In this document: piece after piece, positions 15,380 through 57,427 of the stretch
Position numbering within the stretch: the first letter of the stretch is position 1
Layout of the letters: every line of letters begins with the position of its first letter
NCBI GenBank assembly: GCA_014871385.1
Contig: CM026423.1
Coordinates: forward strand, 6,424,967-6,488,966
Direction of reading: 5' to 3'
Length of the DNA: 64,000 nt
DNA from: Ceratodon purpureus
Taxonomy: Eukaryota; Streptophyta; Bryopsida; Pseudoditrichales; Ditrichaceae
The notes under the pieces: model-generated
The model's input: only the letters and a program-made list of their open reading frames with translations
What the model was told of the DNA's origin: nothing
Database searches by the model: none
Program-made: the position numbers and the translations under genes

Positions 15380-15608
15380 TGTACAATCGCCTACAACAAA
15401 AACACATAATGCTTTTTTGAGGCATTCAAATACTTTGTAAACACCATACAATAAAATTGGTCCATGTTACCTTGGAAAAGTATCACTCAATTCTTAGCCA
15501 ATTCCAGTCAAGCATACCAAGTTTCAAATTCAAAAAAGCAAAATTCTAATTACTAATGGAGTTTAAAAGCCAATTTATATGAATTTACAATATATTTAAT
15601 TGAAAATA
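15380..15608 (+). repeat. outer inverted-repeat arm, left
   Basis: Pairs in inverted orientation with 20100-20326. Shared landmarks are AACACATAATGC, TGAGGCATTCAAAT, ACAATAAAATTGG and AAGCATACCA, with substitutions and small indels between them. It is clearly older than the inner arms. Confidence 0.8.
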
Positions 15609-15775
15609 AATTCTGAATTAACATCACATATAACAATTAACTGTCTATATAAAAAACTAAAATAATTACATATATAAATTAAAAGAGTAGATAGTCTCAT
15701 TTAATTAAAAATAAATGAAACTATTTTAGATATCTAAAAAAGATTAAAATATTTTTTTATTTTTTAATGGTTTTC

Positions 15776-15848
15776 TAGAGTGGTAGGATTTGAACCCGTG
15801 ATCTCCATCACCCAAAGATGGCACATTACCAAACTACATTATGCCCTA
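15776..15848 (-). pseudogene. tRNA-Pro(UGG)-like sequence, left arm
   Basis: On the minus strand a 73-base segment has tRNA layout: anticodon stem CCATC/GATGG is perfect, the loop TTTGGGT gives anticodon TGG, the D-stem ATGT/ATGT pairs with G-T wobble, and the T-loop motif GGGTTCAAATCC is present. The acceptor pairs over about five positions. The T-stem has two mismatches, so it is probably degenerate. The T-loop and D-loop wording resembles plastid trnP-UGG. Confidence 0.5.
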
Positions 15849-15993
15849 TTAAACTAAAAATAATACAAATTATTTATTATTAAATGATATAAATTGTTAT
15901 TAAGTAATATAAGAAAGTAAATTTGTATATTATTTTATTTTATACAAATGATTGATCTTTTAGTACAAATCACGTTACAATATTTATTGATAA

Positions 15994-16072
15994 ACCGCCA
16001 TGGTGAAATTGATAGAGTCATTGCTTTTAAGAAATAGTGCTAACGCATCTTGGTTTGAGTGCAAATGGTAGT
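15994..16072 (+). pseudogene. plastid trnL-like sequence, anticodon TAA, left arm
   Basis: From CCGCCATGGTGAAATT onward this segment aligns without a gap to plastid trnL-UAG as I remember it, through the D-loop, anticodon arm, class II variable arm and T-arm. The anticodon is TAA instead of TAG (loop TTTAAGA). The acceptor halves ACCGCCA and TGGTAGT pair at six of seven positions counting one G-T. The T-stem has two mismatches and the anticodon stem one. It may be a relic or a reshaped gene. Confidence 0.5.
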
Positions 16073-16850
16073 ATTTAAATAGAAATATATCTTCTATTCA
16101 GTTTTTAAAAATTAAAATATATTTTTCAAAACTAATTTTTAAAAGATATTTTATATTTTATTAAAAACTAAAGTTTAATAAACTTCAAATACTTAAATAA
16201 TGTGATTTATTTTCATATTAAACTATTTGAAATAGGTTTAATTGTAAATAATGAAAATTTTATTATAATTAATGAGACTCTATAATATTCTTTATAAAAG
16301 TTCAAAAAATAAATTTTAATGAATTAAAGTCACTCTACTCTTCTATAAAGATAAAACTAAATTATAGTAAATACCAATACCAATAATAGAGAGAAGTAAA
16401 CAATATAATATTAAATTCACCTCTACTCTTGCATTCTCTTAAAAAGTAGTATTAATGCATTTTGGTTTGACTCTAAGTGGCGGTATTGAAATAGAAATAT
16501 ATCTTCTAAAACTTTTTTCTAAAATTGAAATATATTTTTTCAAAGTATTTTTTAAAAATTATAATTTATTAAAAACCCAAAATTAAATAAACTTTAAAAA
16601 GTTAAGTTCTATAATTTTTTTTTCTCATTAAACTTTTTAAAATAGATTTAACTAGTAAATAATAAATAAAAAAATTATAATACTGTTATAATGAGACTCT
16701 ATAATATTCTTTATAAAAGTTCAAAAAATCAATTTTAATGAATTAAAATCACTTTACTCTTCTATAAAGATAAAACTAAATTATAGTAAATACCAATACC
16801 AATAATAGAGAGAATCAAATAATATAATATTAATTATGCCTTTGGTCTTA
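16020..16850 (+). repeat. tandem duplication of ~415 bp inside left arm
   Basis: Two direct copies meet near 16436. Landmarks repeat at a spacing of 412 to 419 bases: AAATAGAAATATATCTTCT, GAGACTCTATAATATTC and CCAATACCAATAATAGAGAG. The first copy begins inside the trnL-like sequence and the second carries only a degraded 3' half of it. The mirror image lies at about 17910-18740. Confidence 0.85.
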
Positions 16851-17120
16851 GATTTATTTAAAGAAAATGTGATGAATTCTACAACTATATCGTATTATCT
16901 TGCACTATCTCTGAGCAAAATGCTCTTAGTCCTGCATTGGGATATGCATCCTCTATAATCTCCTAAAAACTAACTACATCTAAGATTGTTGAATTCCTTC
17001 ATCCCACTAACCTCTCTCACATCTCTTAACTAGCTCTCATACTATCAAATAGCTCATACTATAAAATACCCATTCAAAGGAGTTCCCTCAATGAGAGCTA
17101 TTTCTATGAGGTATTTGTTT

Positions 17121-17250
17121 GTATGAGAGCTAGTTGGGATGGAGGATCTTAGTAATTTTTTAGGTGTAGTTAGTTTTTCTTGGAAGATTTTAGAAGATGC
17201 CTATCCCAATGCAAGGCCCATTAGACGTAGAATAGTAAGGATAGTTTTAA
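17121..17250 (+). repeat. 130-bp direct repeat, copy 1, in element spacer
   Basis: Starts GTATGAGAGCTAGTTGGGAT and ends around GATAGTTTTA. A second copy is at 17532-17661. A more diverged relative starts near 17718 in the right arm (and mirrored in the left). Confidence 0.85.
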
Positions 17251-17531
17251 GATTTTTATATATGATTTTGTTGGAGTTTGTGAAAGTGTTGTTTTTCTTT
17301 TGCTTGTATATTTGGATTTATGATTTCTCACAATCATTCTATTAGTTTTAGTCCTTGTTAGGTCGGGGGGAGAGGAGTGGTGTTGCGCCTCGGAGGGGGG
17401 TGTGTGTGTATGTTGCGCCTCGGGGGGGGGTTGTTTACGGCGTGCGTGCTATAAAAATAGTTTGAGGTATCTATTTCTATGAGGTATTTGTTATTGTTAG
17501 TATGAGAGCTATTTCTGTGAGGTATTTGTTA

Positions 17532-17661
17532 GTATGAGAGCTAGTTGGGATGGAGGATTTAAGTATTTTTTTAGGTGTAGTTAGTGTTTTTTGGGAGATT
17601 TTAGAATATGCCTATCCCAATGCAAGGCCCATTAGAGGTAGAATAGTTAGGATAGTTTTAA
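17532..17661 (+). repeat. 130-bp direct repeat, copy 2, in element spacer
   Basis: Second copy of the unit at 17121-17250 with scattered substitutions. Between the copies lies a GC-rich block with GTTGCGCCTCGG twice, followed by G-runs (about 17360-17430). Confidence 0.85.
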
Positions 17662-18687
17662 TCTCCCATTGAGGGAACCCCTTTGAATGGGTATTTTATA
17701 GTATGAGCTATTTGATAGTATGAGAGCTAGTTAAGAGATGTGAGAGAGGTTAGTGGGATGAAGGAATTCAACAATCTTAGATGTAGTTAGTTTTTAGGAG
17801 ATTATAGAGGATGCATATCCCAATGCAGGACTAAGAGCATTTTGCTCAGAGATAGTGCAAGATAATACGATATAGTTGTAGAATTCATCACATTTTCTTT
17901 AAATAAATCTAAGACCAAAGGCATAATTAATATTATATTATTTGATTCTCTCTATTATTGGTATTGGTATTTACTATAATTTAGTTTTATCTTTATAGAA
18001 GAGTAAAGTGATTTTAATTCATTAAAATTGATTTTTTGAACTTTTATAAAGAATATTATAGAGTCTCATTATAACAGTATTATAATTTTTTTATTTATTA
18101 TTTACTAGTTAAATCTATTTTAAAAAGTTTAATGAGAAAAAAAAATTATAGAACTTAACTTTTTAAAGTTTATTTAATTTTGGGTTTTTAATAAATTATA
18201 ATTTTTAAAAAATACTTTGAAAAAATATATTTCAATTTTAGAAAAAAGTTTTAGAAGATATATTTCTATTTCAATACCGCCACTTAGAGTCAAACCAAAA
18301 TGCATTAATACTACTTTTTAAGAGAATGCAAGAGTAGAGGTGAATTTAATATTATATTGTTTACTTCTCTCTATTATTGGTATTGGTATTTACTATAATT
18401 TAGTTTTATCTTTATAGAAGAGTAGAGTGACTTTAATTCATTAAAATTTATTTTTTGAACTTTTATAAAGAATATTATAGAGTCTCATTAATTATAATAA
18501 AATTTTCATTATTTACAATTAAACCTATTTCAAATAGTTTAATATGAAAATAAATCACATTATTTAAGTATTTGAAGTTTATTAAACTTTAGTTTTTAAT
18601 AAAATATAAAATATCTTTTAAAAATTAGTTTTGAAAAATATATTTTAATTTTTAAAAACTGAATAGAAGATATATTTCTATTTAAAT

Positions 18688-18766
18688 ACTACCATTTGCA
18701 CTCAAACCAAGATGCGTTAGCACTATTTCTTAAAAGCAATGACTCTATCAATTTCACCATGGCGGT
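18688..18766 (-). pseudogene. plastid trnL-like sequence, right arm
   Basis: Mirror copy of 15994-16072, on the minus strand here. Confidence 0.5.
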
Positions 18767-18911
18767 TTATCAATAAATATTGTAACGTGATTTGTACTAA
18801 AAGATCAATCATTTGTATAAAATAAAATAATATACAAATTTACTTTCTTATATTACTTAATAACAATTTATATCATTTAATAATAAATAATTTGTATTAT
18901 TTTTAGTTTAA

Positions 18912-18984
18912 TAGGGCATAATGTAGTTTGGTAATGTGCCATCTTTGGGTGATGGAGATCACGGGTTCAAATCCTACCACTCTA
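18912..18984 (+). pseudogene. tRNA-Pro(UGG)-like sequence, right arm
   Basis: Mirror copy of 15776-15848, reading on the plus strand with anticodon loop TTTGGGT. Confidence 0.5.
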
Positions 18985-19162
18985 GAAAACCATTAAAAAA
19001 TAAAAAAATATTTTAATCTTTTTTAGATATCTAAAATAGTTTCATTTATTTTTAATTAAATGAGACTATCTACTCTTTTAATTTATATATGTAATTATTT
19101 TAGTTTTTTATATAGACAGTTAATTGTTATATGTGATGTTAATTCAGAATTTATTTTCAATT

Positions 19163-20099
19163 TTGCCTTAAGGACTATGACTATTTTCACGTTAAAAGGA
19201 TCATTTGATATCACTAAGTACAACAAGCTATTTTTTTTTGACATTGTGACATTTTTCAATGAATTCAACTGTTGAATCTTAGATATATTATAGTAAATAT
19301 TTCCCTCTCCAAAATTTAGAGTTAGACAAAAAATATATGGCGTGATCTTAGCCCTTGAACACCATGATTAAGTTATTGAGGATTTTGGAATTGTTACAGG
19401 TAAATGACTTGAGGATTCACCAAAAATATTCAGAAAAAAAAAAACCTCATTACTTGCCGTTTAAAAGAGTATAAGGTGGTAGAGGTATAAAATGACAGTT
19501 AAACCTAAATCACTATTTTTGTTGACACCAAATACAGTAATGTTATTTCCAACAATGAGATTATTGTATGAATCAATTGTAATTTTTTATTTTTGTTTAA
19601 TTTTTTTTTATTCTTGAAAAATTGTTGAAATTACATTTAAGATGAGACTTTAAAGTTTGTTTTTGTTAACATTTTTGGCAAGTGCCCATATAAAATGACT
19701 TTTGTATCATTTGCTTGACATAATAGAATGTAATGAAACAAAGCATTCTACATTCATAAAAACCTGAACAATATGATGCTTAAAAAATAATTAGAAAATA
19801 TTTTGAGAACTTCTTTAGCCCTTGCACAATATGATTCTTAAAAAATCATTAGATAATATTTTTGAGAATTGTTTTAGCCTTGCATTGTACATTTGATCAT
19901 AATGGTAGAATTCTTTTGCTAAAATCTTGTTACAATAAAGAAATATCTATTTTACAAAATTTGGGCATAATAAGTTTTCATTGAATTCTTTAAAGTGAAA
20001 AACTTAGTTACTCAATGGAGTGATTTTTAATGCAAAAGATGTCTGTATGTATGTTCCTTACATGTCTTTGCAATCGAATTTTAAAAAGTCATCATCAAT
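19163..20099. other. 937-bp block interrupting the right side of the element
   Basis: This block has no counterpart on the left, where outer and inner arms are contiguous. The 11-base word TTATTTTCAAT occurs at both its edges, ending at 19161 and beginning at 20099-20100, as expected for an insertion with a target duplication or a deletion between short repeats on the other side. AT-rich, with no coding capacity seen. Confidence 0.5.
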
Positions 20100-20326
20100 T
20101 ATTTTCAATAAAATATATTGGAAATTCACAAAAATTGGCTTTTAAATCCACCAAAAATTAGAATTTTACTTTTTTGAAATTGAAATTGGTATGCTTGAGT
20201 GGGATTGACTAAGAATTAAGTGATAATTTTGCAAGATAATATGGACCCAATTTTATTGTATGTTTTTTACAAATATTTGAATGCCTCAAAAAGGCATTAT
20301 GTGTTTTTCTTGTACGCGACTGTACA
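20100..20326 (-). repeat. outer inverted-repeat arm, right
   Basis: Inverted, diverged partner of 15380-15608. Confidence 0.8.
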
Positions 20327-49620: not shown

Positions 49621-51491
49621 CTAAATCCATTTTTGTTCTTGCATCCATGGTTGTGGATCTACCGCTTCTCCTCGTACATGTAGGCCCCTGTCAATCACAG
49701 AGCAAATACCGTTTTAAAAACTAATGCATGTTGATTACAATGCTCAACAGAAAGTAAAAAATTGTGGAGTTCAGTTTTAGATGAGACTCACCAGTGCAGA
49801 TGAGGTCCAGTGGCGATTCCAGTCTCTCCAACGGTGCCGATTATCTGCCCTGCTTTCACCATCTCTCCTTCCCTGTGAAGATCGTAACAAAAACATTGCA
49901 GATGACGAGAGAGTGAACCTTATCTCGACCAACCTTAAAATTGATCCAGCCATTTATAAGAAACACACCACTTGCAGGTTGAGAACTGTAGACGGCATGG
50001 AAAGCTTACTTGACAAAGGAAGAATTGAGGTGCATCATTATGCTTGTGACTCCATGACCATGGTCAAGCCCCACACAACTGCCATGAATTTCATAGCCGT
50101 CCTTCTCTTTGCCTACCAGAACTACCCGTCCATTTGCAGGAGCTTTCACAGGATCTCCTTCCCAAGCGCCGTAGTCCACACCCCGGTGATAGTATCTGCA
50201 CGAATAGAAACATCACATTAAAAGGAGAGGATTACCAATAACTCGAGACTATATCAATTATTTAAGCTTCCATTGAAGGCTTGAGAAAAGGCATGCAATC
50301 ACTGAAACTCCACCTATCAACTCTTGTTTGAAGAGCTAAAACAGCGAACCCTAGCTTCTTATTCTCAGAACAAAACTGTGAAAAATGCCTGCAAAAGTTT
50401 GCCATTACATACTGGTCAGCAAACACGCCGTTGTAGTATCGTTGCAAGCCATAGCCCGTCGTGATCTCTCCATCGCTCGGTAACATGAACGGTCCATTCC
50501 AGATCTGCTCCTCAGACACAGTCCCAATAAATGCGCCAACCTTTTCTTTCTCCATCACAGTACCTATCAAAACCAGCTTCTTACCATCACCCACTCCGCA
50601 CCAACATCAACATCACTCACATAAATGATGCAAGTTTGCCTTCTCCTGCTATGCAACTCCAGGTTTCAGTGTTCAGTTAGAAACAAACCCCGGGGAGAGA
50701 TGGCAAGGAGACTCACCTCGAATCTTGGATTTGGTTTTGGGCAGCCAGATGCTCTCCACCGGATACTCTTTCTCCGTAACCTCCACAGACCCTTCAAAAA
50801 CCTTATGCTGGCCGTCATTCACCTCCACTTTCAACGCTCGCGGTCCCGGAGTCGTCAAGGGAGTAGTCGGAACCAATGCTCTCAAGAGCTTGCTATCAGA
50901 CGCCGTTGGAAACACAGGAACCTCACAGCCATCGTACATAACTTGCACTTTCACATCAGGTTGCGGATTCTTCCTAAAAACAGAACACATCACATGTCAA
51001 TCAACTCTCCCAACATCAACCAAAACTCATCTCCAAACAAAGAATCCAAACCTCAAACACACATCCAACCTGAACAAGTGAGAGATTTCTTCCAAAACCC
51101 CGCGCTGAGGATGAATCGACACGAGAACCACGATCGTCTCCCCCTTGGCAGGAGTCCAAGACGACAGCTCCACATTCAAACGCCGCTCCCCTAACCCCAG
51201 AAGTACCTCCGCCCGCTTCACAACATCTTGTGCAACATTGCCAAACCCTTGTAAAAACTCCGGATGCTTGCCCTTCCCTTCAAAGAACCCCTTCACAGCC
51301 TCCCCGATGTGAGCAAACCCCGGACCCCTCTCTCCTCTTCTCCCAAACCCAGTAGCCCTCCCGAAGCTCACATGTGAACGCCGACTCACATACTCAAATC
51401 CCATGGCACCAAACTCCACACCATGGTGCAGCCCACCATAGCCCACATCTTCCACCTTGAACCGGTCGCAGAATGCGACCGTCACACCCAT
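49621..51491 (-). CDS. M23/LytM metallopeptidase
   Basis: Zinc peptidase of family M23, whose bacterial members cut peptide cross-links of peptidoglycan. Six exons, 51491-51070, 50973-50717, 50563-50413, 50195-50010, 49872-49792 and 49687-49621 (387 aa), all GT-AG with closed phases. The full LytM signature is present: H280 and D284 in YHRGVDYGA, H332 in MMHL, and H363/H365 in GPHLHW. Residues 140-240 form a beta-rich domain with VQVMYDGCEVPVFPT and LRALVPTTPLTTPGPRAL, as in bacterial M23 proteins with an N-terminal Ig-like module. PSDGEITTGYGLQRYYNGVF marks entry to the catalytic fold. The first ~60 residues are Gly/Arg/Phe-rich; a plastid-targeting role is possible but not evident. Peptidoglycan around plastids of mosses and other non-seed plants makes plastid wall turnover the likeliest job (inference). 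The gene is divergent from the lipase gene. Confidence 0.92.
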
Positions 51492-52797
51492 TGCATCAAA
51501 CTCAGAAACTCTACAACAAGCTCAAATCTCTCAAATCAAGCTCACTTCCACCTGATGAGTTGGTTTTGGCTCCGACATGGCAAACCCACTTCACCCATCA
51601 CTGACGACAATTCTATGATTCGATGATTCCCGAATCACATCTGGAATGAATGCTCACATGCTTGGAAGTGGATTAGATTGGCAAGTTCCATGTCACTCAC
51701 TGTGGGCCATGGTACCTTACCTCGGATGACCAACTTCACGAGTCTTCAACCGACTCCACAACTTGAGCTTCTTTGTTCATCCAACAGCATGGTTTTCGAG
51801 GATGCGAGATGAGGACGAAGGGGACTCTCTGTTTTTGAGAAAACACTGGGCATTGTGGGTATGTTATGATGAGCTTTGCAAGTGGATGTGGAATGCGTGA
51901 TTGAGCCCCAAGTAGGTGGAGATGGCGTGATGTGCACATGATGGTTGCTGGTGTCTTTCGAGGTTTCCGTACGGCTGGGTTGTTATTTGGAATTGCGTGT
52001 AGTTGTGTACGTTGTGGGCATGTGAGAGGATATCGGAGTGAGAGATTGGGAAGGCTGTGTGTGTCATCGGTGGCGCTTGTTGGTGAGAGGGCGAGAGTTT
52101 TCTCGAACTGCTGCTCCAGAGATTGATGAGGTCGGTGGGAGTATTTTGAAGGATCCGAGGGGAGATCGGGAGGCGAACATCATGAGTAGCGACTGGGAGA
52201 GGATTCTGCTGCTCTCCCAGGATCACATATCAGGCGCGCTGCGATGAACGTGGAGGATCCTCGGTGGTCTTGCGACGTAGATTTTAGTACACTCTTGGGT
52301 AAGGTTTCGACATGAGCATGATTTCTTAGGATTATCCTTGGTTTCCGGAAGGCGCCAATTCATGTAGGCATATTTGATGATGAGGAATTCTTCTGGCTTC
52401 AAGCATGTGGGTAGGCAGTCGGCCGTCACAACAGACTTGATTTGCAAGTTTCTGGAAAGTAAAAGTTACCTTCGGAGAGCAGGGTAGAGTGTTGAATCTT
52501 TAATCACACGAATCAAACCGGAGAGTTTTATTTAGTTGATTTGCAGAGGAGGGTTTTAGTTCCTCATGTGGCGTGTTCGTTGTTGAAAATTGGGTTATGT
52601 GTGATCGGATGTTGGTTTGTGTCGGTGTTGTTTGAGCTCAGTTTATTAGGGTTTGCAGGTATGCACAAGTTCTTCCTGAATTGTATGCTTTTCTTGAGTC
52701 GGTTTGTAGGTTTTTGTGTAGTTTTTCCATCGAGTGAGATGCTTTTGTAACCAGAGGTGCTTGGTGTGCTTTTTGGAAACAGACCCGTTTTGCAAGC
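51492..52797. promoter_or_regulatory. divergent promoter M23 / class 3 lipase
   Basis: 1.3 kb between opposite start codons; no protein gene recognised. The centre (51900-52230) is G-rich on the plus strand. The last 250 bases are probably lipase 5'UTR. Confidence 0.4.
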
Positions 52798-55607: not shown

Positions 55608-56980
55608 AAAGCAGCAGAAACGACTGCTACTATCTTAAGCTAGAGAAGGTGATATGGCTATCCATGTATTATGTGGCAGAATCCGGGCCAAGTCTGGAGC
55701 TGCTACAGCCGTCAACACCAACTTCACAAGACTATGTATTATTATTTACCTTAGAATGTTTTGGAATAGTGTGATTTGGACTCAACCCGACATGCAGATG
55801 CATGAACTGTATATATTTACTGTACATTTTATTGACCGAATTTGCACGGAATTTTATTTTATGAGTACTACATAATACCTCTGTGTTCTTAAGCTGCTAA
55901 GCAATTGGAATTGCACGCAATTTACTTATTGACGATACTTTTTCCATACACAAAGTTTTTATCCGAAAGAGTGTTTGCTGGCTACAGAACTTATTATTTG
56001 TGTTTGGACAACTTACGAATTTCTCGAATAATGCTCAAGCGTGAACAATTCTCTCAATTGTGTGCACAATTTGAACTGCTGTTTGACGTATTCACTACTC
56101 AAACCTCAAAATTCAGAACCATAAACAAAGTAGGACGTTGATTCACTGAAATACACCATATTTATTTACATACAAAAATATGTTACAAGGTTGAGTCCAG
56201 CCATTAAGGGGATTGGAAACTCAAACCACAGGCCGAATGGAGCAGAACGGCCACAACGACGAAGTCGTTGAAGGAACATCCGTTACTGAAGCTGGCAACT
56301 ATATCCGATGAAATTCTCATCAAACTACAAGGCGCACTTCGTGCAAAACCCGCTGTACAAGATGATACGTTTTTAAAAAAATCAAACGTTCGTGAGCAAA
56401 ACAGAATCCACCATATTGCGGTGATACCTTCACCCTCGCCTCCTCGAAATGCTCCGTGCAACTCTTTCAGCAATTATACTGAACTATCGCGTCGAACCGA
56501 CATACATGAATTCATCAGCATGCTTGTACTTTCCTCAAGATATTAGAGGCAACATTCCTGCACAATGAACAATTCAATTAGTGCTTTGCACTAAATTTTC
56601 AAAGCTAATGAGAATTTAGAACTCATGAGAAGATACTTCGAGAATGATCATTTTCTTAAACGACAATTCAAGGATATGTAGACCTCTAGCCAATCGATCA
56701 ACAGGAAATTGTAGGCTTTCACTATCTACAGAAATCTTGCACTACAGAAGGTCCTCATCAAAGGAAAGCGAGTCAAATAAGGTATCATCATCATCAACAC
56801 CGGGCTCCCGAACAACTGAAATTCGCTACACAATTCCGGTGCATTTTTGAAGCTAAGTACACAATTAACTAGTCTCTTCACCATGAGATGCCAGCTTCAG
56901 AAAACAATCTATAGATCTCAAGAAGAAATCAAAAACCACATTGATCAGTTAACCAATACACATCGGTTGAATTCAGTACC
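55608..56980. other. convergent spacer, no gene
   Basis: 3' flanks of the lipase and S1-like genes. Short open frames only. Confidence 0.5.
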
Positions 56981-57427
56981 TCAATTCCATCCGGCAATGA
57001 AAGTATAGACAAGGTCCTTCTTGTCTGCTCGATAGAACCCGTCGAACTTGATCTGCCAGACGCAGCTAGCACAGGGAGTGAGAGTGATGGTCCCCACGAG
57101 CTTGCGGTGGCCCATGACGCCCTGCCATACTCTCACATCCTGGCTGTGCTTCCTGCAAGGTGGTCCTGCAGCGCAGTCACTGGAGTCTTCCCAGTCGAAG
57201 TGGCATGTCCACCCCATGGACAGCACGTCGCCATTAAACTCCCACTCCTCATTCCCCATGGGACTGATCACGCTTGCCCCGCGGTTCACGTTGTCTGCGA
57301 CGCAAGTTGCCGTGACTGGGTCCCCGATCAAGTTGATCAGCTGCACCGAGGATTGAGCTTGGATGGCAAGCGGCATGAGGAACGACACCAGGACGGCAGA
57401 GCACATGGCAAGGAACTGGAGCTCCAT
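56981..57427 (-). CDS. secreted S1-like (plant self-incompatibility S1 family) protein
   Basis: Intronless 148-aa secreted protein. The first ATG gives MELQFLAMCSAVLVSFLMPL, a clear signal peptide with a likely cut after AIQA. The mature part has the S1-family outline: a short strand near VQLINLIGD, ISPMGNEEWEFNG where the family has its PGQ/WSF turn, WTCHFDW, a variable loop, then CVWQIKFDGFYR at the end. Six Cys follow the signal peptide, more than the usual pair or four. In poppy the founding S1 protein is a pollen-inhibiting ligand, but most relatives are of unknown function, and self-incompatibility is not implied. The assignment rests on pattern, not on a search. An unusual small secreted cysteine-rich protein is the alternative. 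Confidence 0.65.
   Translation of the reverse strand: MELQFLAMCSAVLVSFLMPLAIQAQSSVQLINLIGDPVTATCVADNVNRGASVISPMGNEEWEFNGDVLSMGWTCHFDWEDSSDCAAGPPCRKHSQDVRVWQGVMGHRKLVGTITLTPCASCVWQIKFDGFYRADKKDLVYTFIAGWN

Follow-up and report, generated by a model that had tools for sequence, protein, structure and literature searches.

A near-perfect inverted repeat in the moss Ceratodon purpureus as a probable template-switch duplication of decayed plastid DNA

Introduction

How does a 1.5-kb inverted repeat with almost identical arms come to stand in the nuclear genome of a moss, and does any process keep the arms alike? We address this question for a locus in a 64,000-nucleotide stretch of Ceratodon purpureus DNA, called here the window (assembly GCA_014871385.1, contig CM026423.1, positions 6,424,967 to 6,488,966; coordinates below are those of the window unless a contig or locus is named). 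The initial annotation, made from the letters of the sequence, described two arms with tRNA-like sequences around a spacer, argued that their near-identity means a very recent origin, gene conversion or selection, and knew of no named transposon family with this layout. Our analysis suggests, with a probability of roughly 0.7, that the locus arose recently, when a replicative template switch beside an older, imperfect 281-nt hairpin duplicated decayed nuclear plastid DNA (NUPT) in inverted orientation.

Results

The arms differ only at their inner tips

Realignment recovered the arms exactly where they had been placed, at 15598-17097 on the left and 17663-19162 on the right, each 1500 bp long, inverted and gapless, with paired coordinates summing to 34760 throughout and a 565-bp spacer between them. 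The near-identity reported for them amounts to 1498/1500 positions and ends sharply past both the outer and the inner ends; given this length and identity, a chance origin is excluded. The only two mismatches, at 17081 and 17094, both fall within the innermost 17 bp. Since random placement would put both of two mismatches in 1500 positions there about once in 8,000 cases (post hoc arithmetic), their position is informative. Plants mutate at about 7e-9 per site per generation, and at that rate the absence of any difference over the remaining 1,483 positions sets an upper limit of roughly 150,000 generations on the age, provided that the arms have not been reset by conversion.

In a scan of 138 kb of chromosome around the locus (alignments of at least 100 bp, arms less than 20 kb apart), no further inverted pair of at least 300 bp at 85% identity or more was found. 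The remaining long alignments were those between the tandem units within each arm (two, of 408 columns at 82%) and a hairpin at the inner edge of the arm (311 columns, 68%), and a control region of 50 kb on another chromosome contained a single inverted pair of 218 columns at 72%. A published scan of the moss Physcomitrella reports 132,656 inverted repeats with a median arm identity of 79% (PMC2600652). Outside the arms lies a second inverted pair, absent from the initial annotation, that joins 15380-15609 to 20099-20326 at 88% over 231 columns; its separate register and lower identity rule it out as a continuation of the palindrome.

Flanking repeats point to copying from left to right

The outer pair is formed by two members, TIR-L and TIR-R, of a repeated terminal-inverted-repeat (TIR) family with at least 40 matching genomic places. 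We compared 21 loci of this family, 19 of them from these places, including the window's own TIR-R, and two retrieved separately, which gave 23 rows. In 21 of them the family sequence runs on, as judged by eye, past the point equivalent to 15609 with TTGGTGATG-like sequence, where the window turns to arm sequence; the 11-mer ATTGAAAATAA immediately before this switch is exact in 11 of the 23 rows. The 12 bp at 15598-15609 are TIR-derived and yet present in both arms, and in the right arm they lie next to R2, an unrelated dispersed repeat whose family starts at about 19166.

Because 12 bp of TIR sequence have been carried to a place beside R2, we read the right arm as the copy and the left as the original, a direction of copying that is well supported by these family comparisons. 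On the simplest reading, the right arm would have been copied from the left as far as 12 bp into the TIR element, with a stop at the border with R2. Copying in the other direction is disfavoured because it would need the 12-bp match at the junction to have arisen by chance or to have been selected as microhomology. We also considered a single large element bounded by TIR-L and TIR-R with the palindrome as its cargo, and found no support for it: TIR-L is shortened, and the interior of a TIR pair on contig C13 (spacer 3.8 kb) has nothing in common with the locus. Outside the window, paired members of the family stand at L054 (2323-7021) and L055 (2908-3593); in one the interior measures 3.8 kb, and the other is about 690 bp in total.

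The genome search shows no further full copy of the arms

To find further copies, as the initial annotation had proposed, one arm was searched against the whole assembly (362 Mb, 151 contigs). The left arm matched seven places: the two arms, a 159-bp piece on the same chromosome (87%) and four short stretches at 72-77%, two of which fall inside the locus itself. Because the search passes over very frequent words and scores just the top candidates, its counts are lower bounds, though full-length copies are expected to be visible; no third full-length copy of the arm was found. Nor was a target-site duplication seen by eye in the flanks at the outer ends, which abut two different older repeats. 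The earlier statement that no named transposon family has this layout proved right, and for a simpler reason: with no further full copy found and outer ends set against different older repeats, the structure is probably no transposon at all.

The arms contain decayed plastid genes

The tRNA-like sequences noticed at the outset are a tRNA-Pro(TGG), called by ARAGORN in each arm, and a degenerate plastid trnL-UAG (Table 1). The former scores below its gathering level in Rfam, and no Rfam family matched at gathering threshold across the window. The latter agrees with a plastid comparator at 60 of 81 positions, and C>T and G>A changes account for 16 of the 21 substitutions; its local score of 63 compares with a best of 23 among 200 random arms matched in first-order composition. 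A second, partial trnL at about 16436-16486, within a tandem unit of the arm, shows 13 such changes among 22, in an alignment that spans an unmatched 5' stretch.

Since a search of the assembly for rbcL (PF00016) gave no match, and with it no plastid contig of its own for comparison, the comparator trnL-UAG was located by a sequence pattern in three other contigs (L056, L057 and L058). These are filed as Lactobacillus, Clostridia and Solirubrobacter yet carry plastid genes, and are probably plant contamination; the genes we take to be ccsA and ndhD in all three and psaC in L056 and L057.

Downstream of trnL, each of the two tandem units holds a decayed C-terminal tail of plastid ndhD with internal stops. 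The two tails score 30.8 and 31.6 bits, against a best of 27.7 among 300 random arms searched with the same six plastid proteins, and the possibility that they are AT-rich noise was discarded on this ground. The best score for ccsA in the arm, 21.6 bits, was not above the random-arm controls, and the gene is not recognisable there. The plastid contigs carry trnL (+), ccsA (+) and ndhD (-) in that order, and the arm keeps trnL (+) followed by ndhD (-), as in L056 and L058, with ccsA unrecognised between them. The adjacency of trnP and trnL in the arm fits the order trnP-GGG, trnL-UAG reported for the Psilotum plastome (PMC3553075), but with anticodon TGG; trnP-GGG itself is found in two of the four moss plastomes tabulated in PMC5877570.

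A bias towards C>T and G>A substitutions has been published as a mark of NUPTs in 17 plants (PMC6376042), and it is present in both trnL copies. With plastid homology on a nuclear contig of 25 Mb (C3), the trnL and ndhD stretches can firmly be read as old NUPT on the strength of these alignments; for the remainder of the arm, much of which has no recognisable plastid match, a plastid origin is inferred. What sets the locus apart from an ordinary NUPT is that it has secondarily been turned into a near-perfect inverted pair.

The two tandem units, themselves an old duplication, differ at 61 of 389 aligned columns, but 16269-16386 and 16684-16805 differ at only 3 of 118, a concentration that none of 20,000 permutations equalled. 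This low-divergence stretch overlaps the ndhD tails. It may reflect patchy homogenisation at the locus, and another cause is possible.

An older hairpin lies at the inner breakpoint

The spacer is built from a 375-bp piece, S, present in about 1.5 tandem copies; S also occurs at C3:6389227-6389601, some 52 kb to the left of the locus. Identity to S is 92% over 17098-17450, 100% over 17448-17493 and 94% over 17498-17661. The inner end of the left arm carries a diverged S copy in inverted orientation (71% to S), and because of it 16933-17213 folds as a long imperfect hairpin. Its predicted folding energy is -125.7 kcal/mol (z-score -14.27; none of 200 shuffles was as good). The opposite strand is nearly as stable at -120.8 kcal/mol, and strand-biased folding, a sign of a selected RNA, was not seen in this comparison. 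A distance of 24 bp separates the inner breakpoint of the palindrome, 17097, from the hairpin's centre. The initial annotation does not mention this hairpin, which is like young plant MIRNA foldbacks in form only.

Discussion

A template switch would account for the anatomy

The findings can be joined into one sequence of events. A plastid fragment from the trnP / trnL-UAG / ndhD region would have entered the nucleus long ago and decayed through many C>T and G>A changes, and part of it would have been duplicated in tandem. The fragment would have ended up between a shortened TIR element and the S tandem, where its inner end and S formed an imperfect hairpin. Later, a replication fork, perhaps stalled at this hairpin, may have jumped to the opposite strand at 17097, close to the hairpin loop. 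From there it would have run outwards along the left arm, copying 1500 bp of which the final 12 lie inside the TIR element, and then returned at the border of R2. The product would be the right arm, a new inverted copy, and the two mismatches would be errors made close to the first switch. What we observe is the anatomy, the positions of the mismatches, the decayed plastid trnL and ndhD tails and the absence of further copies from the genome search; the replication mechanism, the role of the hairpin, the recency and the plastid origin of the rest of the arm are what we infer.

Template switching accompanied by a few point mutations has been described in human inverted rearrangements (PMC4352052). 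Like inverted duplications attributed to fork stalling and template switching or microhomology-mediated break-induced replication (FoSTeS/MMBIR), the Ceratodon locus has an identifiable source next to its copy, abrupt junctions in unrelated sequence, differences near the switch and an older inverted repeat on site. It is far shorter than the human cases of that report, its junction microhomology is weak, and its parental state is a reconstruction.

Several observations weigh against this account. The microhomology at the inner switch, assessed by eye, is short and imperfect as well as weak, and the state before the duplication is reconstructed from one assembly. The rest of one S copy (copy B) does not resume past R2. 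Arm identity alone cannot tell a recent origin from conversion. As to plastid descent, the tRNA-Pro has the anticodon TGG, whereas the neighbour in the plastome is GGG, and at the DNA level the ndhD end outscored all 150 random arms for two of the three plastid contigs but not for the third. CpG in the arm is at 0.35 of expectation but TpG/CpA is at 0.90, that is, without excess, so that the composition of the whole arm bears no clear mark of deamination; the neighbouring repeats do show a TpG/CpA excess (1.29 in R2, 1.44 in TIR-R).

Alternative explanations

The main rival is an older palindrome in which gene conversion has kept the two arms the same everywhere except at the innermost base pairs. 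Sex-chromosome palindromes are an example of arms kept alike in this way, and the locus shares with them near-identical arms around a spacer, with differences at the inner edge. The confinement of differences to the inner tip and the patchy similarity of the tandem units would both suit such a history. For these arms conversion is a possibility; the low-divergence stretch falls on the ndhD tails and could have arisen otherwise, and the 12-bp TIR overhang, though compatible with later conversion, fits a single copying event. Since a recent event accounts for the arms with no additional process, we consider conversion unlikely, if still the alternative most worth keeping in mind. Among the three explanations first offered for the near-identity, recent origin is therefore the best reading and conversion a possible one, and nothing supports selection. 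That the palindrome was made by the assembly, from a chimeric or fold-back read or by writing one region twice, deserves thought because long inverted repeats are a known hazard for assembly; a 565-bp spacer, distinct flanks, the TIR carry-over and two internal differences are unlike a simple fold-back read, and we regard an artefact as improbable. A foldback-type transposon with 1.5-kb terminal inverted repeats would explain long inverted repeats enclosing a short middle, with other repeats on the flanks. Such a family is defined by multiple genomic copies, and would need further full copies with target-site duplications, of which the genome search found none, returning only the two arms and short pieces; moreover one outer end meets TIR-L and the other meets R2, and decayed plastid genes lie inside the arms. 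We ruled this family out, leaving it next to no probability.

Fold-back structure is present at two scales, in the 281-nt hairpin by folding and in the 1.5-kb arms by base pairing, and the initial annotation had pointed to a possible source of small RNAs. If transcribed, the arms could give a long, near-perfect double-stranded RNA and so, with low probability, small RNAs. Most 21-nt small-RNA loci of Physcomitrella are reported to be enriched in inverted repeats (PMC2600652). In the long duplex that its transcript would form, the locus resembles the long inverted-repeat small-RNA loci of plants, such as Arabidopsis IR71, which is named in the same paper. That the arms are maintained by selection for small-RNA production is nevertheless very improbable: they have few other genomic matches to act on, the short hairpin's two strands fold about equally, which gives no sign of selection on one RNA, and Rfam microRNA matches are far under gathering scores (best 29.6 against 249 bits). 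A related idea is that a small-RNA gene is being born in layers, an old S-derived hairpin having recently been embedded in the near-perfect NUPT inverted repeat, with the S copy 52 kb away as a possible target region. The pairing of S with a diverged inverted S-like copy resembles the inverted-duplication model of MIRNA birth (PMC3237417), and if the idea were true, the locus would feed dicer enzymes and could direct methylation of nuclear plastid-derived sequence; we give it a slim chance.

The template-switch event that we favour would be ordinary in kind, as its parts and proposed mechanism are all of known kinds, and what is unusual is how readable its anatomy is. Source, copy, direction, both breakpoints and the junction-proximal differences of a single rearrangement can be named from one sequence. 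In the literature searched, we noticed no published case of an inverted duplication of decayed nuclear plastid DNA. The locus illustrates a route from non-mobile organelle DNA to a long inverted repeat, from which fragile sites and hairpin small-RNA loci may arise, and cautions that a long perfect inverted repeat is not necessarily a transposon.

Features of the locus and neighbouring sequences

Table 1. Positions, strands and supporting evidence of the features at the inverted repeat.
Feature	Position	Strand	Basis or remark
Left arm, read as original	15598..17097	+	Self-alignment; polarity from TIR and R2 repeat-family comparisons
Right arm, read as new inverted copy, with 12 bp of TIR sequence at outer end	17663..19162	-	Self-alignment and family comparison
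TIR-L, shortened copy (230 of ~444 bp) of the TIR family	15380..15609	+	Last 12 bp are the start of the left arm
R2, unrelated dispersed repeat adjoining right arm	19166..19880	+	Its last 58 bp occur a second time at 19823-19880
TIR-R, longer copy of the TIR family (~444 bp)	19883..20326	-	Orientation opposite to TIR-L
tRNA-Pro(TGG)-like, probably plastid-derived	15775..15848, mirrored at 18912-18985 (+)	-	ARAGORN; Rfam 21.4 bits, under gathering level of 29
Decayed plastid trnL-UAG	15994..16074, mirrored in right arm	+	Alignment to plastid comparator
Old tandem duplication within arm	16019..16833 (16019-16414 and 16432-16833, 82%)	+	Self-alignment; contains second, partial trnL
Decayed C-terminal end of plastid ndhD, first tandem unit	16304..16399, mirrored in right arm	-	30.8 bits
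Decayed C-terminal end of plastid ndhD, second tandem unit	16723..16878, mirrored in right arm	-	31.6 bits
Older imperfect inverted repeat, 281-nt hairpin	16933..17213	+	Half in left arm, half in spacer; self-alignment and folding
Spacer, ~1.5 tandem copies of the 375-bp piece S	17098..17662	+	Alignment to C3:6389227-6389601

The spacer contains a 68-codon open frame at 17139-17345, which is open also at the other S locus (88% identical) and has a distant match at C7:8081489-8081662 (34%); a Pfam search with this frame gave no match. Beside the distant S piece, C3:6389622-6390630 and C3:6397909-6399352 (L008, L051, L052) match the window at 50171-52479 and 56738-57087 with 84-96% identity, one of them inverted and one including the end of an S1-like gene. 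Among seven frames scanned with Pfam, one has a plant self-incompatibility protein S1 domain and another DUF3537, a plant family.

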